The notes under the pieces are model-generated. The model saw nothing but the letters and a program-made list of their open reading frames with translations, was not told the origin of the DNA and searched no databases. A stretch of DNA of 36,034 nucleotides from positions 1 through 36,034 of the forward strand of contig JAMXLN010000293.1 of the NCBI GenBank assembly GCA_024281145.1, read 5' to 3'. Shown here in pieces: positions 14,635 to 36,034 of this stretch. This DNA comes from Hyphomicrobiaceae bacterium (GTDB lineage Bacteria; Pseudomonadota; Alphaproteobacteria; Rhizobiales; Hyphomicrobiaceae). The position numbers were made by a program, and so were the translations under genes. How positions within the stretch are numbered: the stretch's first letter is position 1; every line of letters starts with the position of its first letter.

Positions 14635-15454
14635 ACCGAACTACCTACGCGCCGCACGCATGAAGGCCGCAGCCGTCCTTGGCGTGCACTATCCTGGGAT
14701 GAGAGCGGAGAAGCTTTAAGAACGCGCTAACGGCGGGGCTGTGCACCATGGCGGCCGCAACCCTTGAGGCAGCGCCCCTGCGGCCGGCCGGCGCGCAATT
14801 TGCCCGCGGCGACCGGCTGGTAAATCTCTGCAATCGCCATAAGCATTGAGATTGAGCCGCTTGGCCGACCGATCGGCGAACTTTCTGCGATCTCGGAGCC
14901 GATCAAACGTTGGCGTAGAGCTTGACCATGCCAGACGAATGATGAACCGCACACGCCAATCCCCCGATCCAGTTCCGCGTGCCTGCGCTCGCGGGGTGGC
15001 GCGGCGACTGCACGGCTTGCGGTCAAGCACTGCACGGCGCGTTCTGGAGGGACAGGGAAACTTTGGCCGGCGTTACGCCCTGAGCGGGGCTCAGGCTTAC
15101 CGCGCTCCTGGGGGCCCGAGGCCCGACCATTGCCGATGCCGACGCCCCCTTGCCGTTGCCGACCTCCATGGGTTCATCCGCGGCTCAGCAAGGCGGGCGT
15201 TGCGAATCACGAGGTCCATGCGCGCCCTGCCACGTCAGGTTCAAGGGCCTAGGGTGGGATGCCGACGGGGGTGCGAAGGCCCGCTCGTCTCGCCGCGGCC
15301 GTATTTTCCGGGCATCCTCGCCCCGACGGGTGCACGATTGCCACACTGTCACAGATACTTCCAGCGTGCGGGCTGGCGGAGCGGGGAGCCGGCAAATTAC
15401 CATGCGGCGAAACTGACGATTTGGCTCGGCAACGAGCTTTGCGGGGATCCTTGC
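14635..15454. other. Long non-coding gap between divergent cell-wall genes
   Basis: I see no gene I can support in these 820 bases. The frame of the downstream transpeptidase stays open from 14846, but its signal peptide starts only at 15455. A perfect 7-bp stem with a 3-base loop lies at 15079-15095 (CCTGAGC / GCTCAGG). Short TTGCCGA-like repeats occur around 15129-15165. The stretch must hold two divergent promoters and could hide a small RNA or a decayed gene. Confidence 0.5.
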
Positions 15455-17344
15455 ATGATCAATAGGCGCTTACTCGCCATCGCGCTTGTCATGGCGCTGA
15501 TGGGCGGTCTTGCGGTGCCGGCCTGGTGCCAGGGCCTCGACGCGGGGCCAGCAACGCCCGATCCATTGGCACCTGTCGAGGTCAGCAAGCCGGCACCCGC
15601 CGCACCCGGTGCACCGGTCGCGCCAACGGCGGGGCCCGCCGACACCGTGCATCCAATCGTGGCGCTCGTGCGCGAGCGCCTGGCGGCGACGCCGGCCCGG
15701 GGCAGCGAAGCCGATAAAGAAGACTACGCCGGTCTCGTTGCCTTCTATGCCGAGAGCCACGGCCCGCCGATTTGGACGAGCAAGGACGGCTTCACCCCTC
15801 GCGCCATGCAGGCCATGGCCGAGATCCGAAGGGCCGACGACTGGGGGCTCAAAGCCTCCGCATTTGAATTGCCGACCCTGCCAGACAGTCAGGCAACGGA
15901 CGAGGTGCTGGCCGACGCTGAGATCAAGCTCAGCCTTGCCGCCCTGAAATACGGCCGATTTGCCCGCGGCGGCCGGCTAGATCCACCCTCGGTCAGCCGC
16001 ATGTTTGACCGCAAGCCCGTGATCTATGATCCCAAGAGCCTGCTGCAGGCCCTGGCCGTCACTGACGACACGGAAACCGCCGACGCTTACCTGCGCAATT
16101 TGCACCCCAAGCACCCGCAATTTGCGCGCTTGCGCCAAGCCATGCTCGCAGCCCGCGGCGCACGAGCTGACGACCCACTGCCCCTCGTGAAGATACCGCC
16201 GGGGCCCGCCATCAAGCCCGGGCAGGAGCATCCACACGTTGCCTTGCTGCGCCAGCGGCTTGCCATTCCCGCGGCAGCCGACGGCAACGAGACGCTCTAT
16301 GACGACGGGCTGGCCACCGCGGTAAAAGCCATTCAGGTCGAGAACGGACTGGATCAGACTGGCGTCATCAACACCGCCACGCGCAATGCCCTCAACGGCG
16401 CCGACCGGACATCCCCCGGCAGCAACCTGCAGCGCATCATCGTCAATATGGAGCGGTGGCGCTGGATGCCCGAGAACCTCGGCGACATCTACGTCTGGGA
16501 CAGCGTGCCCGAGCAGATGACGAGCGTCTACGAGCAGGGCAAGCAGGTCCTTTCCGAGAAAATCGTGGTTGGCAAACCGAGTTCTCCTACGCCGATCTTC
16601 TCAGCCGACATGCAGTTCATCATCTTCCACCCGTCCTGGGGCGTGCCGCCGGGTATGAAGGCCTCCGAGCTGGCCCCGCTGCTGCGCAATGCCGGGGGCG
16701 GATGGTTCTTCTTCTCCAGCGGAGCCTCCGCGGTGCTTAGGGGTTATGGCCTGCAGGTCAGCCGCGGCGGGCATCCAGTCAATCCCGATTCCATCAACTG
16801 GTCGAGCGTCGACATCCAGAGCTTCGACTTCACTCAGCCACCGGGTCCCAGCAACGTGCTCGGCATCGTCAAGTTCCGTTTTCCCAACAAACATGACGTT
16901 TATATGCACGACACCCCCGAACGCAACCTCTTTGGCGGTGCGATCCGCGCCTTCAGCCACGGCTGCATGCGTGTGCAAAATCCCGTCAAACTGGCGGAGG
17001 TGCTGCTCGCTCACGACAAGGGGTTGTCGAGCGACCAAGTGCAGGAGTACGTGCGTCGCGGGGGTGAGATCAAGCTCACCACCCCCATCCCCGTGCACGT
17101 CACCTATTTCACGGCAGTCGTAGACGACGACGGCAAGATCCAGTTCCCACCTGACATCTACGGTCTCGACGGCCGCGTCGCCTCCAGGCTTGAGGGGCAG
17201 GCCGTGCACCTCACTACCTCCTCCACCGAACGGCCGGAGGTCATCGAGAAATCCAATCTGCCTGCGCGTGCGAAGGCGCGCCCGCGCCAGAAGGCAGCCT
17301 CCTCCCAGTCCTATAATCCATTCGCGGCAATCTTTGGCAATTAG
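15455..17344 (+). CDS. L,D-transpeptidase, YcbB/LdtD type
   Basis: A 629-residue exported enzyme that makes 3-3 crosslinks in peptidoglycan. The order is: signal peptide (MINRRLLAIALVMALMGGLA, cleavage near AWC-Q), a Pro/Ala linker, a YcbB-type scaffold domain (e.g. LAALKYGRFARGGRLDP, residues ~165-181), a PG_binding_1 repeat (ATAVKAIQVENGLDQTGVIN, ~residues 289-308) and the YkuD catalytic domain (from IIVNMERWRWMP). Catalytic residues are in the YkuD motif S501-H-G-C504 (SHGCMRVQNP), with the upstream H485 in VYMHDTPERNLF. The start at ATG 15455 follows GCGGGGAT and begins the signal peptide. The basic C-terminal tail (ARAKARPRQKA) is not family-typical. It is divergent from a peptidoglycan-binding-type protein. 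Confidence 0.95.
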   Translation: MINRRLLAIALVMALMGGLAVPAWCQGLDAGPATPDPLAPVEVSKPAPAAPGAPVAPTAGPADTVHPIVALVRERLAATPARGSEADKEDYAGLVAFYAESHGPPIWTSKDGFTPRAMQAMAEIRRADDWGLKASAFELPTLPDSQATDEVLADAEIKLSLAALKYGRFARGGRLDPPSVSRMFDRKPVIYDPKSLLQALAVTDDTETADAYLRNLHPKHPQFARLRQAMLAARGARADDPLPLVKIPPGPAIKPGQEHPHVALLRQRLAIPAAADGNETLYDDGLATAVKAIQVENGLDQTGVINTATRNALNGADRTSPGSNLQRIIVNMERWRWMPENLGDIYVWDSVPEQMTSVYEQGKQVLSEKIVVGKPSSPTPIFSADMQFIIFHPSWGVPPGMKASELAPLLRNAGGGWFFFSSGASAVLRGYGLQVSRGGHPVNPDSINWSSVDIQSFDFTQPPGPSNVLGIVKFRFPNKHDVYMHDTPERNLFGGAIRAFSHGCMRVQNPVKLAEVLLAHDKGLSSDQVQEYVRRGGEIKLTTPIPVHVTYFTAVVDDDGKIQFPPDIYGLDGRVASRLEGQAVHLTTSSTERPEVIEKSNLPARAKARPRQKAASSQSYNPFAAIFGN

Positions 17345-26828: not shown

Positions 26829-27905
26829 TCACTGATGGGCCACGCGGCGTGCGTGCGAGGCCACGCGCGCCCGGCGCACCGCCGCATGGCTGGCACGCCC
26901 GCTGCGTCCCGCTGCACGGCGTATCTTGGCCCGCATCGCCACGCGGTGGACGCGAGCCGCCACCTGAGCAATACGCTCCGCCTCCGGGCCAGCGAGCGGC
27001 ACGATGCCCACCATGGCATCCTCGCAGATGTCAAAGGCGGTCGGCGCACCATTGTCCGGAGGCGCTGCAACCTCCTCGGCGCGATCACTCTCGCGGATGA
27101 TGTACCGCCGATCGCAGACGCTCACCCGCGGGGGCAGGTGCGTGCGCTCGAAGATGTCGTAGGCCTCCTTGAGGTTGAGCCAGAACGCCAACCACTGGCT
27201 TTGCGCGTGCGCCGCCAGGTTGGCTTGGCTCATGCGGAACGGGAACACCTGCACCTCAATCCGGTCCTGACCCTCGCGGAGCGCCCGCTCGCTCAAGGCA
27301 TAAATCTCGTCCATCACGGGGTCGGTCATGGCGAAACACCCCGTCGAGCTGCAGCCCCCATGCACGAGAATGTAAGAGCCCGTGCGGGCAAGCGAGCGGT
27401 CAAAGGTATTGGGATAGCCGATGTCAAAGGAGCGCGGGCGTCGCCCCTTCGGATAGAGCTGCTTTATTCCAACGCTGTAAAACCCCTCGGGCGCCTGCCT
27501 GTCCCCCTCGCGCATTTTCGGCCCCAGACCACCCGACCAGAAGCAGACGCGATACGTGTTGAAGAGCTCGAAGCGACCCTCGCGCGCAATCCACAACTCA
27601 AGTTCCGAATCCTGCTTGAAGATGCGGATCATCACCGGGCTGCCCGCCGTGAGACCCTTCTCGGCGAGGCGACGCTCGCGGTCGGCGGGGGAGAAGGGGG
27701 TGCCAGGCGACGGCTCCACGCCGGGTCCGCTTGGGACGGTGGGCTCGGTGGGCGCCGGCGAAGGCGCCGTGAGCATACCATTGCCAACGCCTCCGTCCGG
27801 GGCCACGGCCCCAACGGGCTCAGCCGCAAGGCTTGCAAGCACAGCCAGACCAATCGAGGGAAAGGTTCTCCAGGAACGCACCCAGCGCACGCGCATGTCG
27901 TTCAT
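26829..27905 (-). CDS. YafK/DpaA-like L,D-transpeptidase-fold protein, exported (third of the trio)
   Basis: About 358 residues with a YafK-type YkuD domain. A signal-like hydrophobic segment (TFPSIGLAVLASLAAEPVGA) is followed by a Pro-rich linker (residues ~48-72). The catalytic domain has VMIRIFKQDSELELWI, FWSGGLGPKMREGDRQAPEG, DIGYPNTFDR and the active-site loop H182-G-G-C-S-S-T-G-C190-FAMTD. In E. coli YafK (DpaA/LdtF) this fold releases Braun lipoprotein from peptidoglycan. The C-terminus continues with a cysteine pair (C264, C294) and ends in a strongly basic Arg/Ala/His tail (~residues 318-358) that the other two copies lack. The start could be ATG 27905 or 27896; both have GAGG nearby. 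It follows the second copy after 118 bases. Confidence 0.9.
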   Translation of the reverse strand: MNDMRVRWVRSWRTFPSIGLAVLASLAAEPVGAVAPDGGVGNGMLTAPSPAPTEPTVPSGPGVEPSPGTPFSPADRERRLAEKGLTAGSPVMIRIFKQDSELELWIAREGRFELFNTYRVCFWSGGLGPKMREGDRQAPEGFYSVGIKQLYPKGRRPRSFDIGYPNTFDRSLARTGSYILVHGGCSSTGCFAMTDPVMDEIYALSERALREGQDRIEVQVFPFRMSQANLAAHAQSQWLAFWLNLKEAYDIFERTHLPPRVSVCDRRYIIRESDRAEEVAAPPDNGAPTAFDICEDAMVGIVPLAGPEAERIAQVAARVHRVAMRAKIRRAAGRSGRASHAAVRRARVASHARRVAHQ

Positions 27906-28023
27906 CACCTCGTCCGTCACCTCAAGCGAGTGGGATGGTGGCATGCCCCCCAGGGCGCGCCCGTTAGGCAAAGGCGGGTATTGCACCCGCCCGGATTGAA
28001 GTTTGCTGGCCGACCCGCAAGGA

Positions 28024-28914
28024 TCAGCCCTTGTGACCGCCTAGGTCCATGCAACTGTTGGCAATTTCATGGCCGCCGGCTTGGCGATCGGCGGATTGGG
28101 CCACAATGTAGCGTCCGGCGCAGACCCCGACGATCGGCGGCACATGCGTGGTCTCGAAGGCCGCATATCCGCGCTCCAGCTCCTGCCAGAAGGCCCCCCA
28201 GCGCGGATTTCGCGGGCTGGCGAGGTTCTCGGGCGTCATCCGGAACGGAAAGACGTGCACGTGAAAGCGTGGCTGACCACCGTTCAGCGCCGCCGTAATC
28301 AGGCGCCAAATCTCATCGACCACCGGATCCGTCATGGCAAAGCAGCCGACCGATGCACACCCGCCATGCACCATCAGCAGCGAACCCGTGCGGGCGTGGG
28401 CTCGATCGAACGCATTGGGAAAGCCAAGGTCGAAGGCGCGATGCCAGCGGCTCGCCGCATTGAGCGCCTTCGCCGTCACGGTGTAGAAGCCTTCCGGCGC
28501 CTGCCGGTCGCCTTCCCGCAGCTTGGGGCCAAGCTCCCCCGACCAACGGCAAATGGGATAGGTCGCAAAGCGCTCGAAGCGATCGCCGCGTTGCATCCAC
28601 AGCTCCAGTTCGAATTCGCGCTTGAAGATGCGCACGAACACCGGGGCGCCGAGCGTCAGGCCCTGAGCAGCCAGGCGGCCGGAGAGGTTGGCAAGATCTG
28701 GTGTCCCGGGTAGCGGCTGCCCCGATGCGACGTACGCCAGTCGACGCGCACGCTCCAGCTCGATTGCGATGGGCTCGAGGGCATTGAGCCACCAATCGAT
28801 CAGCGGATGGCTCAGCAGCGCCGCAGCCGCGAGGGCCGCGACAGCCGCCACGACGACGCTCAGGGTGCGAGCCCGCTCGATCGGGTGGCCGCTCGGGCGC
28901 TCTCGGTCGCTCAC
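28024..28914 (-). CDS. YafK/DpaA-like L,D-transpeptidase-fold protein, membrane anchored (second of the trio)
   Basis: A 296-residue protein: a charged cytosolic N-terminus, one membrane segment (residues ~18-36) without an obvious cleavage site, a helical spacer, then the YafK-type domain. That domain has FVRIFKREFELELW, CRWSGELGPKLREGDRQAPE, DLGFPNAFDR and the loop H183-G-G-C-A-S-V-G-C191-FAMTDPVVDE. C191 is the expected nucleophile. It lacks an SHGC motif in strict form, as YafK proteins do. A C-terminal cysteine pair (C265, C288) is shared with its neighbours. The GTG start at 28914 overlaps the stop of the upstream lipoprotein copy by 4 bases (GTGA), so the two are translationally coupled. 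Bond specificity is unknown. Confidence 0.9.
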   Translation of the reverse strand: MSDRERPSGHPIERARTLSVVVAAVAALAAAALLSHPLIDWWLNALEPIAIELERARRLAYVASGQPLPGTPDLANLSGRLAAQGLTLGAPVFVRIFKREFELELWMQRGDRFERFATYPICRWSGELGPKLREGDRQAPEGFYTVTAKALNAASRWHRAFDLGFPNAFDRAHARTGSLLMVHGGCASVGCFAMTDPVVDEIWRLITAALNGGQPRFHVHVFPFRMTPENLASPRNPRWGAFWQELERGYAAFETTHVPPIVGVCAGRYIVAQSADRQAGGHEIANSCMDLGGHKG

Positions 28915-29900
28915 CGGACCGGCGCGAGGCTCGCGCCCGGCAGGCTCGGCGCGCCGCCGGAGCCCCCCGTGCCCGTCGAGCCGGTCGACAGCAGCCCCGA
29001 GCGGGTCACCTCGTCGGCGTTTGCCAGGCTGCGCATCTTTGCGCCGGGCACAACAATGCGCTGGTCGGCAAACTGCTCACCGGGCCGCGGCTTGAACGGA
29101 TCGGGTCTGGGCTTGAGGAATGCCGGGCAGGCGGCTTCCGGATCAAGGTGGGAGAGATCACCGTTCCTGAGCGCAACATTGACCACATAGTGGCGACTGC
29201 ACACGGCGACGTTGGGCAGCTTGCGCGTCAGCTCAAAGTAATCATAGCCCTCCTTTATGGTCAGCCAGAACGGATAGGCCTCATGGCCGGCAAAGCGCGC
29301 CATGTTCTCCTGTGTCATGCGGAACGGGAATGCATGGACTGGAATGGTGTCGTTCCCGCCGATGAAGGATTCGCGCGCAATGGCGTAGATTTCCTCGATC
29401 AGCGCATCCGTCATGGCGTAGCAGCCCGCCGACTTGCAACCCCCATGGATCATGAGGGCATCGCCGCTGCGCTTCCACGCTCGGTCGAACGCGTTGGGAT
29501 AGCCGAGGTTCATGGCCAGGTGATACTTGGAATCTGGGTTCATCTGTTCCCTTTGGATGGTGTAGAACCCCTCCGGCGCCTGACGGTCACCGTATCTCAC
29601 CTTGGGCCCAAGGTCCCCCGACCAGTTGCAGATCGGATAGGTCTTGAAGTGGTAGTAGCGCCCATCATCGCGCTGCTTCCAGAGTTCCAGCTCCGATTCC
29701 TCCTTGAAGATGCGGATGAGGATCGGCGCCTGTGGATCCATGCCCTTCTTGCCGAGCAGCATCATGGTGTCCTGCGCCAGGGGGCGAAGGTGCGGTGCCA
29801 CCTCGATTTGATTGGCGCAGGACACAAGCACAAGCACCGCCGCCGCCAGGCCAGCGCAGCAGACGAAGTGCAGCAGGGTCCCGAGGATGATGCGACTCAT
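28911..29900 (-). CDS. YafK/DpaA-like L,D-transpeptidase-fold lipoprotein (first of the trio)
   Basis: A 329-residue protein with a type II signal peptide and lipobox L-V-S-C28, so it should be lipidated in the inner or outer membrane. The catalytic domain is the closest of the three to E. coli YafK: LIRIFKEESELELWKQ, CNWSGDLGPKVRYGDRQAPE, NLGYPNAFDRA and the active-site loop H152-G-G-C-K-S-A-G-C160-YAMTDALIEEI. Probable role: cutting or making an L,D bond between peptidoglycan and a tethered outer-membrane protein, by analogy with DpaA. The tail holds C234 and C258 and a Gly/Ser/Thr-rich end. The ATG at 29900 follows GGGGGC. A CtrA-type box lies ~47 bases upstream, so this is probably the operon head. 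Confidence 0.92.
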   Translation of the reverse strand: MSRIILGTLLHFVCCAGLAAAVLVLVSCANQIEVAPHLRPLAQDTMMLLGKKGMDPQAPILIRIFKEESELELWKQRDDGRYYHFKTYPICNWSGDLGPKVRYGDRQAPEGFYTIQREQMNPDSKYHLAMNLGYPNAFDRAWKRSGDALMIHGGCKSAGCYAMTDALIEEIYAIARESFIGGNDTIPVHAFPFRMTQENMARFAGHEAYPFWLTIKEGYDYFELTRKLPNVAVCSRHYVVNVALRNGDLSHLDPEAACPAFLKPRPDPFKPRPGEQFADQRIVVPGAKMRSLANADEVTRSGLLSTGSTGTGGSGGAPSLPGASLAPVR

Positions 29901-29935: not shown

Positions 29936-29963
29936 GATTCGTAAACGTTAACATTGGCTTAAC
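29936..29963 (-). promoter_or_regulatory. CtrA-type box with adjacent GANTC site
   Basis: 29947-29963 reads GTTAA-N7-TTAAC, a perfect full CtrA site (TTAA-N7-TTAAC) on both strands. GATTC at 29936-29940 is a CcrM methylation site. The box is 47 bases upstream of the lipoprotein start. The pairing of CtrA and CcrM sites is known from cell-cycle promoters in Alphaproteobacteria. Binding is inferred. Confidence 0.65.
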
Positions 29964-30131: not shown

Positions 30132-31295
30132 TCAGAGCAGCTGAAAACGCTCGAACCGATGGAGCGCCTCCTCGAGGCAGCGCTTGTGGCGGCGCGCCGA
30201 GCCCCGACCGACCCAGGTCCATTGCTGGATTGCGAGCTTGCGGGCGCTGCGGTCCGCCTTGAGATCGATGGCGGCCACCACCTCGTCGCCGACCAGCACC
30301 GGTAGCGCGAGATAGCCAAAGACGCGCTTCTCCTTCGGCAGGTAGGCCTCGAAGCGATGCTCGTAGTCGAAAAACAGCGCCAGGCGCTTGCGCTGAATGA
30401 CGAGCGGATCAAAGGGGGAGAGAATGTGCACCCGCTCTGCAGCCGCCTCGGCGTTCATCTCGAGGTCTGCGGGCCGCGCCCAGTGCTCTAACTTGCCAGC
30501 CGCCTCGAGGGCGACCCGCACCAGCTCCCCGCGCCGCACGCAGGCCTCGATCAGCTGCCGCATCGCGGGTTTGCGCCGGGCGTCCTGATGACAAACGGAA
30601 TCGACACTGATGAGCCCTTGCGTGCGCAATCCGCGCTCGAGCAGATAATGCACGAATTGGCGCTCCGAGGTCGGCCGGGGCCGCTCTTCCCACCCGAAAT
30701 GGCGCTCCATCAGCTCGTAGCTCTTGAGCATCCCCGAGCGCGCATTGATGGTGACGAGCCCCGTATAGAAGGCCACCTGCAGCGCCCGCTTTGAGGGCTT
30801 GCGACTGGCCCAGGGATGCACCTTCTCAACCAGCACGTCATCGTCGATGTCGCGAATGGTGAGCGGGCCACCCTTCCTGATGAGGGCCACCACTTTGCGC
30901 ACATCCGCCCGCGTCACAGCGCCGAACCAGCGGTTGGGGCGATAGCGCCGCATGGCGCCAATGAAGAACCGAATGTCCCGCGAGGGCACGTACGACAGCG
31001 CGTGCGTCCAGTATTCGAACACCGTCTTGTCGACGCTCTGGGCTTGATGCAGATGCGCACGTTGGTAGTTGGGAATGCGCGTGAACAGGATGTGATGATG
31101 GCAGCGCTCGATCACGTTGATCGTGTCGATCTGCACATAACCCAAGTGCTCTACCGCCGCGCGTGTGGCCTGGGCGCCCTCGCCGAATGGCGCTTCGGTC
31201 TCAAGCCGCTGCGCCCGCAGCCAGAGGCGTCTGGCGCGCGCCTTGGAGAGCGCATAAGTCTGCTTGGCAATCGCGCGCATCAACATGGGTCGCAT
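30132..31295 (-). CDS. YcaQ-type winged-helix DNA glycosylase (AlkZ/AlkX superfamily, HTH_42)
   Basis: A 387-residue winged-helix protein of the DUF1006/HTH_42 family. The diagnostic QxD catalytic motif is present as Q55-I-D57 in VQIDTINVIERCHHH, as in E. coli YcaQ (AlkX), rather than the QxQ of the AlkZ type. Other family stretches are FEYWTHALSYVPSRDIRFF and LSPFDPLVIQRKRLALFFDY. Related enzymes excise alkylated bases and can unhook interstrand crosslinks. The first ATG (31295) and two nearby ATGs (31286, 31280) are all possible; none has a good ribosome site. It lies 41 bases downstream of accA on the same strand, so co-transcription is likely. Function is inferred from family. Confidence 0.92.
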   Translation of the reverse strand: MRPMLMRAIAKQTYALSKARARRLWLRAQRLETEAPFGEGAQATRAAVEHLGYVQIDTINVIERCHHHILFTRIPNYQRAHLHQAQSVDKTVFEYWTHALSYVPSRDIRFFIGAMRRYRPNRWFGAVTRADVRKVVALIRKGGPLTIRDIDDDVLVEKVHPWASRKPSKRALQVAFYTGLVTINARSGMLKSYELMERHFGWEERPRPTSERQFVHYLLERGLRTQGLISVDSVCHQDARRKPAMRQLIEACVRRGELVRVALEAAGKLEHWARPADLEMNAEAAAERVHILSPFDPLVIQRKRLALFFDYEHRFEAYLPKEKRVFGYLALPVLVGDEVVAAIDLKADRSARKLAIQQWTWVGRGSARRHKRCLEEALHRFERFQLL

Positions 31296-32542: not shown

Positions 32543-33487
32543 TCAGCTCCGCGACGCTAGCGGATGATGCTCAAGGACGAGCTTCTTCAGCCGCTCCTCC
32601 AGAACGTGAGTGTAGATCTGAGTGGTCGAGATGTCTGCATGGCCGAGCAGCTGCTGCACGGAACGCAGGTCTGCGCCGCGGTCCAGCAAATGGCTGGCGA
32701 ACGCATGACGCAGAACGTGCGGAGAGACGCGCTCGGGCTCGATGCCAGCTTCGAGAGCCAGCCCCTTCAGTTCCTGCGCCAAGCGCTGGCGCGTGAGATG
32801 GCCCTGCGCTCCGCGCGAGGCAAACAGCCACTTGCGGGCAATCCTGCCGACGTCCACGTCGCCCTGGCGGACAACGTTGAGATAGCTGTCAAGGGCGGCG
32901 CGGGCCGACGGCGTCAAGGGGACGATGCGTTCGCGCCCGCCCTTGCCCTTGACGGTGAGGATGCGACCATCGTCGGCGAGCACCGAGCGCGGCAGTGTGA
33001 TGAGTTCCGTCACGCGCAGCCCAGTGGCGTAAAGGGTCTCAAGCAGCGCGTAGAGCCGCAGCGCCCGCATGCGATCGCGCCCTTGCGTGGTCTGCGCGCG
33101 CCGCCACGCCGCCGCGATCAGACGATCCACCTCGGCGACGGAGAGCGTCTTGGGGAGCGGCCGTCCTTGTTTGGGGCCCTTAAGGCCCAACGTCGGGTCC
33201 TCGGCGACCAGTCCCTCGCCAACCAGGAACTTGAATAACTGCCGGATAGCGGAGAGCCGACGCGCCCGCGAAGTCGCCGCCAACCCCGCCTCCGACCGGG
33301 CGCGCAGGAAAGCCCTGATCTCGGCCGGCGCGACACGCGCAAGCTCATTGCCGCGCCCCTCAAGGAAACTCAAGAAATCTTCCAGGTCGCGGCGGTAAGC
33401 CTGCAACGTGTTGGAGGCAGCGCCGCGCTCCGCCGCCAGCATCTCCAGAAACTCCTCCAGATGCCGCTGCCGGTTCACAACCGTCAT
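32543..33487 (-). CDS. xerD: Tyrosine recombinase XerD
   Basis: A 314-residue site-specific recombinase. With XerC it resolves chromosome dimers at dif during FtsK-driven segregation. The N-terminal core-binding SAM-like domain (EFLEMLAAERGAASNTLQAY) is followed by the catalytic domain with all active residues in place: R158 (TGLRVTE), K182 (KGKGGRER), H257 and R260 (HVLRHAFASHLL), H283 (LGHADISTTQ) and the nucleophile Y292 (IYTHV). Their spacing equals E. coli XerD (R148, K172, H244, R247, H270, Y279), and the position between accA and aroK is typical of the chromosomal copy. ATG 33487 has AGGGAT upstream. It starts 16 bases after the preceding gene ends, so they are probably co-transcribed. 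Confidence 0.97.
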   Translation of the reverse strand: MTVVNRQRHLEEFLEMLAAERGAASNTLQAYRRDLEDFLSFLEGRGNELARVAPAEIRAFLRARSEAGLAATSRARRLSAIRQLFKFLVGEGLVAEDPTLGLKGPKQGRPLPKTLSVAEVDRLIAAAWRRAQTTQGRDRMRALRLYALLETLYATGLRVTELITLPRSVLADDGRILTVKGKGGRERIVPLTPSARAALDSYLNVVRQGDVDVGRIARKWLFASRGAQGHLTRQRLAQELKGLALEAGIEPERVSPHVLRHAFASHLLDRGADLRSVQQLLGHADISTTQIYTHVLEERLKKLVLEHHPLASRS

Positions 33488-33503
33488 ATCCCCTGCCGTC
33501 CCC

Positions 33504-35309
33504 TCAATTGGCAGCCATCCGCGGCCACACCGCCACCAAGGCCTCGAGCGCCAGCTGACGCGCAGCGGCCTCGAGCCCCACACGCCGCAGCGCCCGCAGG
33601 CTATCGCCGAGCGCCAAAAGGTTGGCACCCTCGGGACCAGCTGGGCCCAGCGCGCGCATGACAAGCAAGATGGCGCGGGCTGCATCTCCGTGCTCGGCCG
33701 CCTGCGCGAGGGCGGCCAGAACGCCGGTTTCGGGCAAATGTCCGCTCGCAGGTTGCGACGCCCGGTTGGCCGCGTCCCACACGCTGATCGGCACGTCTAT
33801 GTCGAGGGCGTCGAGCACTGTGGCGAGCCTCTGCAATGTCTCGCCACCGAGCCGACCGGCCTGCGCTAGGTCCGCTATCGGCGCCAACGACGCCAACCGC
33901 CCGCCCCGGCGCTCGGGATCGGCCACGTCGATCAACGCCAACCAGTGCCTGAGATTGGCGGCTTCGGCCCAGCGGCGCGCCAGCTCGAACCGGCCGGCGA
34001 TGAGCTCGGTTTCGAGCGCCGTCTCGGCAAACCAAAGGGCATCGGGGGTGATCACCAGATCGCCAATCAAGGGCGCCAGCACGCGTGCCATCTGCAGCTG
34101 GGTTCCCCGCTGGCGCGCATCCGCAAGGAGGGCGCGCAGGAAGCGCCCCTTCTGCGTTCCCGCGCGCGCCGCTGCAAGGGCTTGGAAATAGAGCGCGTGC
34201 CGAAGCGCGGGCTCGGTCGTGGTCGCAGCGGGATCGACACCGCCAGCGCTGGTGAGGGATGCGCGCCGGTAAACCTCTGCCATCCGCTCTGGCGGCAGGG
34301 CATTGAGGCCCAGCGCCGCCTCGGCTGCGGCAATCCGCACGCGCGGGCTGAGCTCGCTGTCGGCGGCCAGCGCCGCTATGAGAGCTGGCTCGGCTCGGTC
34401 AAAGACTTGCGCGACATCGACAGGTCCCAACAGCTCCAAGAACCGGTAGTCGAGCAGCAACACGCGCGCCGGCAACGTGAGCTTGGGCTTGGTCCCTTCG
34501 GCAAACCCCGCCAGCACCGCCAGTGGCAACTCCGCCTCAACGCCTTCCTCGCGCGCCAGATCAGCGGCGAGCGCCGCCGCCCGCGCGTCCCCGCCTGCGG
34601 CAGCGCAGTAGCCCGACAGCAGCTGCATCTCGCCCTTGAGCCGGCCTGGCAGCCCGGAACTCGGAGCAGCCAACGCCGCGACCCCGCGGCAGCCAATCTC
34701 GCGCCGGCCGAGCCCGATGTTGCGCCGCGCGCGCAGCATCTCGACGACGGGACCGGACAACCCGGTCTGGCTCAGCACAACCTCCATGTCGGACAGCAGC
34801 CCGGAGCGATAGAGCGCTTCGAGCCGCAATGCCACGAAGTGCTCCACGGTCGGTGAACCTGCCGGCGGCGTGGCCGCAGCGAGCAGGACGCGCCGCCACA
34901 ATTGGTGCACGGCCGGCGACCGCGGCGGCAGGTCGAGGCCCGTCAATAGCTCTTCGACCGCCTTGAGATCGAGCCCGCGCCACAGCTCGAGCGGCAGGCC
35001 CGTGCCATCCGTGGCCATGATCGGCGCCAGCTCACTTCGCTCAACGGAGCCACCGCGCGGCGCCACCCACGGCGCCGTCGGCTGAGCCATGGGCGTCGAT
35101 GCCGATCCCCGCATGAGGACCGATGGCTCGGCCGTTAGAGGCCCAGGGGCACCTTGCGGGGCGGCTGCATCGCTGGCGCGCGGGCGCGGGCCGGCATTGG
35201 CCTTGAAGGGGTTCCAGCTGTCTTGAGCGACCGCGGGCAGGGAGCCCAAACCGGCCACAAGACCCAGCAGGGCCCCGCTCAGCGCGGCGATGTGTCCGGG
35301 GACGCGCAT
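33504..35309 (-). CDS. Exported protein of unknown function between aroK and xerD
   Basis: A 601-residue protein that I cannot place in a named domain family. A Sec signal peptide is clear (MRVPGHIAALSGALLGLVAG, cleavage near AVA-QDS), followed by the WNPFKA stretch and a Pro/Ala-rich linker (residues ~45-90). The rest is mostly alpha-helical and Ala/Leu-rich, with pairs of helices of ~35 residues that look like degenerate TPR/SEL1-type repeats. Three cysteines are seen in the mid-part. I recall similar proteins in this position in Rhizobiales, sometimes labelled 'antifreeze glycopeptide-related', a label that carries no functional evidence. ATG 35309 begins the signal peptide; the frame is open upstream without meaning. 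Confidence 0.82.
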   Translation of the reverse strand: MRVPGHIAALSGALLGLVAGLGSLPAVAQDSWNPFKANAGPRPRASDAAAPQGAPGPLTAEPSVLMRGSASTPMAQPTAPWVAPRGGSVERSELAPIMATDGTGLPLELWRGLDLKAVEELLTGLDLPPRSPAVHQLWRRVLLAAATPPAGSPTVEHFVALRLEALYRSGLLSDMEVVLSQTGLSGPVVEMLRARRNIGLGRREIGCRGVAALAAPSSGLPGRLKGEMQLLSGYCAAAGGDARAAALAADLAREEGVEAELPLAVLAGFAEGTKPKLTLPARVLLLDYRFLELLGPVDVAQVFDRAEPALIAALAADSELSPRVRIAAAEAALGLNALPPERMAEVYRRASLTSAGGVDPAATTTEPALRHALYFQALAAARAGTQKGRFLRALLADARQRGTQLQMARVLAPLIGDLVITPDALWFAETALETELIAGRFELARRWAEAANLRHWLALIDVADPERRGGRLASLAPIADLAQAGRLGGETLQRLATVLDALDIDVPISVWDAANRASQPASGHLPETGVLAALAQAAEHGDAARAILLVMRALGPAGPEGANLLALGDSLRALRRVGLEAAARQLALEALVAVWPRMAAN

Positions 35310-35344
35310 GGGCTTGCCACCGCCAGCCGGGGCGCATGCATCGG

Positions 35345-35488
35345 TCAGCGACGCACCTTGACCCCCGGCACGGGCGTGGCCGTCTCCTTCGGTACGGGCT
35401 CGAAAAATGCCTGCATGGCGTAGAGTGCACCAAAGACAACCGCGCCCACGATCCCCGCTACCACGAGAAATCGGAAGAGGCTTGGCAT
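35345..35488 (-). CDS. Small single-pass membrane protein, conserved next to aroK
   Basis: A 47-residue protein: MPSLFRFLVVAGIVGAVVFG, then ALYAMQAFFEPVPKE and a short basic tail ending KVRR. One membrane segment covers residues ~5-24. Short proteins of this form with an F/V-E-P-x-P-x-E motif after the helix occur upstream of aroK in Rhizobiales, as I remember. The start is ATG 35488, with GGGAG about 12 bases upstream; the frame extends upstream but without the conserved pattern. It is 35 bases before the exported protein gene and divergent from aroK over 190 bases. Function unknown. Confidence 0.7.
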   Translation of the reverse strand: MPSLFRFLVVAGIVGAVVFGALYAMQAFFEPVPKETATPVPGVKVRR

Positions 35489-35678
35489 ATAGCGAAGTTG
35501 CTCCCTGGCCTGTATGGTCCAAACGCAAGGTGACGCCATTATGTCGCACGCTATGGGATCGGGCGCTCATGCCGAAATGCCTCACCCCGATTGCGCAAGA
35601 CCTTGCCGCGGCAAGAAAACTGGCAACCGACGCTTGCGCCGTTGGCGGCGGCTCGGAAAGGGGAGACACGCGCCACAG

Positions 35679-36034
35679 ATGATCCGATTCGGCGCACGAG
35701 GCAAAAGCGAAGGGACACAGGCGGACGCTATCCGATCGATCCGCGCGCACCTTGGCGCGCGCTCGATCGTGCTCGTGGGCATGCCGGGCAGCGGCAAATC
35801 GGCGGTGGGGCGTCGTCTGGCCGTCCGCCTCGATCTGGCCTTCCTTGACGCTGATGAAGAGATTGAGCGTGCGGCGGGCAAACCCATCACCGACATCTTC
35901 AAGGATCACGGCGAGCCCTACTTCCGCGAGGGCGAGCGCAAGGTCATCGCCCGCCTGCTGCGCACGGGCCCGCAGGTATTGGCAACGGGCGGCGGCGCCT
36001 TCATGGTAGCGGAAACCCGCGACTGCATCCGCCA
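35679..36034 (+). CDS. aroK: Shikimate kinase, N-terminal part (cut by window end)
   Basis: The frame runs from ATG 35679 to the last base without a stop, giving 118 residues. It is a P-loop kinase: Walker A GMPGSGKSAVGRRLA (residues ~34-48), DADEEIERAAGKPITDIF, FREGERKVIARLL and the shikimate-site LATGGGAFM. It phosphorylates shikimate at the 3-OH in the chorismate pathway. The ~30-residue N-terminal extension before the P-loop is typical of alphaproteobacterial AroK. An AGGGGAG lies ~13 bases upstream, slightly far for a ribosome site. aroB usually follows but is outside the window. Confidence 0.95.
   Translation, partial: MIRFGARGKSEGTQADAIRSIRAHLGARSIVLVGMPGSGKSAVGRRLAVRLDLAFLDADEEIERAAGKPITDIFKDHGEPYFREGERKVIARLLRTGPQVLATGGGAFMVAETRDCIR

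Follow-up and report, generated by a model that had tools for sequence, protein, structure and literature searches.

What would a bacterium do with three adjoining genes for DpaA-like enzymes, each with another N-terminal anchor signal? This question is raised by a 36,034-nucleotide stretch of DNA, here called the window (contig JAMXLN010000293.1, positions 1 to 36,034 of the forward strand), from the genome of a Hyphomicrobiaceae bacterium (GCA_024281145.1; a 4.44 Mb draft in 388 contigs with 15 YkuD matches). Three genes, named Ya, Yb and Yc, follow one another on its minus strand. We favour, with a probability of roughly 0.58, the reading that this trio is a CtrA-linked operon of DpaA-type hydrolases with three different anchors, which would release proteins tethered to the wall. 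Among the matches listed for the open-licence literature, no title or abstract dealt with a YafK/DpaA trio or with Hyphomicrobium wall tethers. The genes and the features within them are:

28911 to 29900, minus strand: Ya, 329 amino acids, with lipobox LVSC and Cys28, catalytic Cys160 and a conserved C-terminal cysteine pair (Cys234, Cys258)
29817 to 29828, minus strand: lipobox of Ya, residues 25-28 (LVSC), with Ala (not Asp) after the Cys
28024 to 28914, minus strand: Yb, 296 amino acids, with a predicted uncleaved N-terminal membrane anchor and catalytic Cys191 (counted by hand)
28810 to 28866, minus strand: predicted transmembrane segment of Yb, about residues 17-35, limits set by eye
26829 to 27986, minus strand: Yc, predicted to be exported, 385 amino acids as called, with catalytic Cys217 and a class-specific L2 loop
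26835 to 26987, minus strand: basic C-terminal tail of Yc, residues 334-384, a single long helix in the model

The earlier note, made from the sequence alone, had described three intact paralogues in one block on one strand, a 4-base overlap of the first two and three different N-termini. All of this was borne out by the three intact, adjoining open frames, by the family matches given below, by the shared GTGA at the end of Ya and the start of Yb, and by the lipobox cysteine of Ya, the one strong hydrophobic segment of Yb and the signal peptide of Yc. The start of Yc possibly lies at Met28 or Met31 (27905 or 27896) and not at the GTG at 27986, because these residues directly precede the signal peptide; the gene starts of relatives were set by a rule of our own and give no independent proof.

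The Pfam family YkuD matched all three proteins, Yb at 21.8 bits, slightly below the cut-off of 23.4. NF040599 (LdtF_DpaA_YafK) was the sole NCBIfam match of each of them, with E-values from 5.9e-65 to 1e-69. Over the domain the window proteins were 44-48% identical to DpaA of E. coli, and the best sequence match of Ya among solved structures was 8ikr, entitled DpaA. Structure models were compared for Ya and Yc. For the Yc model 8ikr was found at Z 27.0 (root-mean-square deviation 1.7, 191 aligned) followed by Csd6 at Z 13.5, and Foldseek likewise placed DpaA nearest. The Ya model, which is of low confidence in parts of the catalytic loops, gave Z 20.9 with 8ikr and 8.7 for the next structure. 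The folds ranking next after DpaA were LD-carboxypeptidases of the Csd6, Pgp2 and Bd1075 kind, which share a related fold with a single-entrance pocket.

Relatives were collected with Ya as query, and the best 80 of 92 named loci were used, a sample biased to near relatives that retain Ya. The best named relatives were mostly labelled Hyphomicrobiaceae, Hyphomicrobium or Filomicrobium, besides some other labels that were taken as given, and we assign the window to the family Hyphomicrobiaceae on this basis. The active site was tallied, in the numbering of E. coli DpaA, over 244 domain rows (Ya 114, Yb 78, Yc 52), which include certain genomes in duplicate as identical rows. At one locus (L068) two frames with less than 80% of the domain were dropped, so that it was counted as Ya-Yc; two genes without a usable start were left out. 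The third copies at L087 and L099 and the second copy at L045 branch deeper and fell into Ya by exclusion; they were counted in the tallies over 244 rows and excluded from the identity, synteny, anchor and upstream-site counts. Cys143, His135 and Lys83 were invariant in all 244 rows and Ser140 was found in 243 (Thr in one), forming an SxGC catalytic motif with an upstream His. Residue 145 was Ala in 239 rows, Ser in 5 and Arg in none. At position 133 Met was found in Ya (112/114) and Yb (78/78), Leu in Yc (52/52) and Gln in 2 of the 244 rows.

In E. coli, DpaA activity requires Lys83 and Tyr109, and Lys83 binds meso-diaminopimelic acid (mDAP; PMC10653827). Many transpeptidases carry Arg at position 145, and the pocket of DpaA has one entrance (PMC10653827, PMC8263019); most DpaA-like proteins are described with Ala or Asn two residues after the catalytic Cys (PMC8263019). 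The missing transpeptidase Arg would favour detaching over attaching. The earlier note had named both activities: the detaching half gained from Ala or Ser at 145 and from the structure comparison it had proposed, with DpaA as the nearest solved fold of Ya and Yc, while the attaching half is disfavoured by the Arg absent from every row. That the trio consists of L,D-transpeptidases (LDTs), which attach proteins or make 3-3 crosslinks, thus appears highly improbable, even though transpeptidases belong to the YkuD family matched here and the Agrobacterium homologues have been grouped with the LDTs of that organism (PMC11527210), since both the residue two after the catalytic Cys and the nearest fold speak against it.

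An unlikely but more serious alternative is that the three enzymes are LD-carboxypeptidases that tailor stem peptides, for example by trimming Gly or an unusual residue from position 4, and do not detach proteins. DpaA itself removes Gly from this position and has Csd6 and Pgp2 among its relatives (PMC10653827, PMC8263019), folds of the Csd6 type rank second for both models, and most rows keep an aromatic residue at DpaA position 109, which in LD-carboxypeptidases is one of two positions of the D-Ala pocket. Yet the pocket Trp which Csd6, Pgp2 and Bd1075 own corresponds to position 133, here Met or Leu, and the DpaA fold is nearer to the models by a wide margin.

In published DpaA docking the stretch around Arg108 and Tyr109 packs on the released residue. 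Using the 46 loci holding all three genes, the L2 stretch (99-113 in E. coli numbers, limits set by us) was ranked among 173 equally long segments and was the top of these in divergence for Yc versus Ya as well as for Yc versus Yb. Together, the shared active site and the class-specific L2 suggest that the catalytic chemistry and the mDAP side look common to all three classes, while the released partner probably differs between them, most clearly for Yc.

Anchor signals were counted, with starts set by rule, in 109 Ya, 78 Yb and 52 Yc genes. A lipobox after a hydrophobic core was found in 106 of the 109 Ya, in 1 of the 78 Yb and in 6 of the 52 Yc genes; Cys28 was invariant among 33 aligned Ya, and Asp followed the putatively lipidated Cys in none of the 106 Ya. 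In E. coli, which belongs to another group than the host, a residue other than Asp after this Cys sorts lipoproteins to the outer membrane, and by this analogy the residue in Ya would fit an outer-membrane location. The hydrophobic segment reached a median Kyte-Doolittle value of 2.54 in Yb (Ya 2.12, Yc 1.86), and the N-terminal positive charge was 4 in Yb versus 2 in each of the others, as would be expected for an uncleaved membrane anchor. An AxA-like triplet was found in 41/52 Yc, followed by a shared mature start in most of 37 aligned Yc, so that export mostly by a cleavable signal peptide is predicted. The Yc tail, basic in the window as it is in many relatives, varies among the 37 aligned Yc; many relatives have a Cys-pair motif in it, which the window Yc lacks. 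The notion of a DpaA-like set with differing predicted anchors is thus supported by signals conserved within each class. Examples of Yb from two-copy families also have an anchor-like segment, suggesting that Yc probably switched its export type after a second duplication.

How old is this arrangement? A maximum-likelihood tree was calculated for 108 domains, with E. coli DpaA, itself a long branch, as root. Ya (53 rows, support 100/99), Yb (33 rows, 99/88) and Yc (18 rows, 100/99) formed clades in agreement with the gene order, Yb and Yc were sisters (96/77), and the forks near the root were weak (97/37, 80/31). Recent near-identical duplicates of a gene that is single-copy in the order, named beforehand in the earlier note as a finding that would speak against it, were not what emerged: the order of the trio is conserved, and the window domains are 47-57% identical to one another. 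Within genomes, identities over the 46 loci were 45-56% for Ya-Yb, 42-53% for Ya-Yc and 47-58% for Yb-Yc, and a recent tandem duplication was rejected on this overall range of 42-58% and on the clade structure. Further families of the order (f2, f8, f29, f30) likewise have Yb after Ya. For f2 and f8 an identical named locus each (L116, L119) has room for a Yc and contains none, and five f29 genomes have two copies each; the f30 genomes have a third copy of unassigned class, so that a Yc outside the family is possible. Most simply, a first duplication would predate the family and a second would fall near its stem. Separately, the third tandem DpaA-like copies at 2219 in L087 and 11019 in L099, which branch deeper than Ya, Yb and Yc, look like an extra copy acquired independently at this position.

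The order xerD-accA-Ya-Yb-Yc recurred at many of the 80 named loci and across genera. Among the 58 loci whose sequence extends 3.6 kb or more beyond Ya, the complete trio was present at 41; Ya-Yc and Ya-Yb were found at 5 each, Ya by itself at 6, and Ya-Yb with a further copy at 1. The copies of a locus always shared one strand. Cultured strains with the trio are Hyphomicrobium zavarzinii ATCC 27496 (L069), H. sulfonivorans S1 (L091) and Filomicrobium insigne (L061). Of the 62 loci in which accA was found, 58 had it on the same strand no more than 1.5 kb upstream; 10 further loci with at least 1.7 kb of upstream sequence had no accA. With starts by rule, Ya and Yb were separated by -4 to 224 bases, with one outlier at 2027. 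Copy numbers were counted per genome and not as tandem sets. In the family (query Yc, genomes at least 90% complete) 67 of 79 genomes had at least three copies (one copy in 1 genome, two in 11, three in 25, four in 39, five in 3), compared to 21 of 142 in the rest of the order (query Ya, at least 95% complete; none in 12, one in 76, two in 33, three in 18, four in 2, five in 1). High copy number marks the host family more than the rest of the order, and the trio is a real, old arrangement marking a family.

The proposed link to CtrA comes from the region upstream of Ya, for which the following features are relevant:

29948 to 29962, minus strand: full CtrA-like site TTAAGCCAATGTTAA, at -48 to -62 relative to the Ya start codon
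31337 to 32368, minus strand: accA, often upstream of the trio in relatives
32543 to 33685, minus strand: xerD, often further upstream in relatives

The 300 bases before each gene were scanned for TTAA-N7-TTAA, which we take to be the CtrA motif, using dinucleotide shuffles as expectation and dropping regions that were too short (<200 or <300 bases). An exact site was found before 32 of 106 Ya genes and a site with at most one mismatch before 74, with 1.0 and 9.2 in the shuffles. The corresponding counts were 0/78 and 2/78 before Yb, 0/52 and 1/52 before Yc, and 0/46 and 1/46 before xerD. Two further upstream controls had few rows: none before an acyl-CoA dehydrogenase gene (n=2), and one site within one mismatch before the LdtD-like gene of the window described below (n=1). 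Removing domains at least 85% alike left 63 Ya genes, of which 45 kept a site with at most one mismatch; in 41 of the 45 it lay 40-130 bases before the start, and the bases around it were mostly near background. The host genome encodes a CtrA homologue that is 83% identical to the Caulobacter protein. The pattern is consistent with a CtrA consensus used for Agrobacterium, where both LdtF homologues, Atu3332 and Atu3631, have a predicted CtrA motif upstream (PMC11527210). Ya loci without Yc also had the site within one mismatch (36/57, 7.0 expected), and taken together with the Agrobacterium prediction this suggests that CtrA-type control probably predates the trio. The three genes of the window would be co-transcribed from this region; between 26600 and 30200 no promoters of the sigma-70 type were found, and two terminator-like sites were found, below the 2.8 of shuffles.

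Several observations weigh against the preferred reading. The NF040599 scores (218.7, 233.7 and 234.3 bits) all lie below the curated 365. Position 109 is Phe or Tyr in Ya (Asn in 2) and mostly Trp in Yb (61/78) and Yc (42/52); with Tyr109 replaced, the substrate or even the reaction of Yb and Yc may differ from that of E. coli DpaA. The L2 stretch of Ya versus Yb is unexceptional, 28 of the 173 segments being as high, and an AxA-like triplet in 20/78 Yb implies that some Yb may be cleaved. The gap between Yb and Yc (68-303 bases, starts by rule) leaves room for a separate Yc promoter. A small excess of the CtrA-like site was seen before accA as well (1/60 exact, 5/60 within one mismatch; 0.2 and 1.0 expected). 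In the host genome the exact motif occurred at 14 places versus 10 for a reversed control pattern and was not clearly enriched, so that the case for CtrA rests on conservation at one place and not on rarity of the motif. At the other 13 exact sites one chosen frame was scanned for families beside 10 of them (L159, L164 and L170 left out). Among the neighbours were unrelated genes as well as a LysM-M23 lipoprotein, a PAS protein, a phosphodiesterase, a solute-binding protein and a weak match to a glucosaminidase; one site, close to a prepilin peptidase, falls inside the frame called for that gene, and two neighbouring frames were without family. These genes neither prove nor exclude CtrA control. 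As an observation of its own, the exact site at 1482 in L163 lies 34 bases before the called start of the gene for the LysM-M23 peptidase lipoprotein, which is a candidate for another wall hydrolase controlled in the same way.

Further counterpoints come from missing members and from Agrobacterium. One or two members were missing at 17 of the 58 loci, of which some lie outside the family (e.g. Nitratireductor) and L068 has Yb as partial frames. In Agrobacterium, green fluorescent protein fusions of the group 1 LDTs, to which both LdtF homologues belong, were dispersed, and deletion of this group left growth unaltered (PMC11527210). The dispersal is the one published hint on the role in polar growth that the earlier note had suggested, and it speaks against such a role. 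One could also regard the trio as a dosage or back-up array of interchangeable copies of one activity, whose anchors are without meaning. This we consider quite unlikely: the loss of copies in some relatives and the high redundancy reported for the Agrobacterium LDTs (PMC11527210) would suit it, but anchor signals and L2 loop are conserved inside each class and differ between classes, and the copies have kept their distance over the 46 loci without homogenising.

Which proteins would three DpaA-type hydrolases release? Lpp (PF04728) was found above cut-off in 0 of 40 genomes, the host genome included, while the E. coli control was positive; one relative had a match just under the cut-off (28.2 versus 29.1 bits). 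As Lpp was not found, other tethered proteins would be the substrates, and beta-barrels are plausible ones. Attachment of barrels via an N-terminal Ala or Gly was reported in alpha- and gammaproteobacteria (PMC8263019; PMC12274547), and release of beta-barrels by alphaproteobacterial DpaA homologues was proposed in 2021 as an untested idea (PMC8263019). In Brucella and Agrobacterium outer-membrane barrels are joined to mDAP in this manner. The host genome has 8 barrels of PF13505, 7 of which carry Asp or Glu at or next to the likely signal-peptide cut, as judged by eye; one start was unreadable. Porin_2, the alphaproteobacterial porin family, was considered as substrate and discarded, having no match in the host genome. 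In Dickeya an inner-membrane protein is reported to be tethered to the wall (PMC12274547), which makes a Yb substrate on the inner-membrane side conceivable.

Compared to known systems, the trio has in common with E. coli DpaA (YafK, LdtF) the fold of 8ikr, the Cys-His-Lys active site and Ala two residues after the Cys. E. coli DpaA is a single soluble enzyme acting on Lpp, whereas the trio has three anchor signals, an altered L2, a CtrA-like site and genomes in which Lpp was not found. Atu3332 and Atu3631 come from the same order as the host, and Atu3332 is given as a lipoprotein, like Ya (Table 2, PMC12729407). They differ from the trio in being two genes with distant locus numbers, and Atu3631 is without a predicted signal peptide; the comparison is by description and not by sequence. 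The published descriptions of the two genes drawn on here mention neither a membrane-anchored copy nor a tandem trio. Lpg1514 of Legionella shares the YafK fold with conserved catalytic Cys and Lys; a serine-dependent turnover of beta-lactams was reported for it (PMC13400389), and an equivalent serine is not placeable in the trio. Mapping its Ser132 onto the three proteins was attempted and given up, as the numbering offset shifts across that stretch.

A fourth DpaA-like copy of the host genome (L014, contig C233, ending at the contig edge) has a Yc-like L2 loop and catalytic motif. Within the window, a gene at 14846-17344 on the plus strand, opposite to the trio and about 9.5 kb from it, encodes an LdtD/YcbB-like L,D-transpeptidase with Scaffold, peptidoglycan-binding and YkuD domains. 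An AlkZ-like DNA glycosylase gene (30132-31295, minus strand) lies between accA and Ya and had no match in L046-L125, some of which are short. Upstream of xerD an open frame of 842 residues (33507-36032, minus strand), truncated by the window end, had no Pfam match; relatives in the same place were found at many loci with about 30-60% identity.

How could the trio work as DpaA-type hydrolases? The Cys-His site would cut the amide bond between the mDAP of the stem and a protein attached there by an L,D-transpeptidase. Ya would act as a lipoprotein from the outer membrane and Yb via its N-terminal anchor from the inner membrane, while Yc would be soluble, with a basic tail that may stick to an anionic surface. 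The mDAP side would be read alike by all three via the invariant Lys83, and the class-specific pocket wall at the released residue would probably lead to the release of different tethered proteins or differently exposed ends. Likely substrates would be beta-barrels tethered by their N-termini, together with other envelope proteins attached to the wall. Through the CtrA-like site before Ya the operon is probably coupled to the cell cycle, and tethers would then be cut while the envelope is being remodelled for budding or division. A bolder version, which we offer as a tentative and rather doubtful possibility, is a CtrA-timed detachment of different classes of tethered proteins in three compartments, including inner-membrane tethers for Yb and a new leaving group for Yc, by which a budding cell might loosen both membranes from the wall as it builds new envelope.

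The trio bears on the question of how diderms without Lpp undo covalent tethers to their wall. With three enzymes which each have their own anchor signal and their own wall of the binding pocket, and with a conserved site of the cell-cycle type, this question becomes testable in cultured Hyphomicrobium and Filomicrobium.

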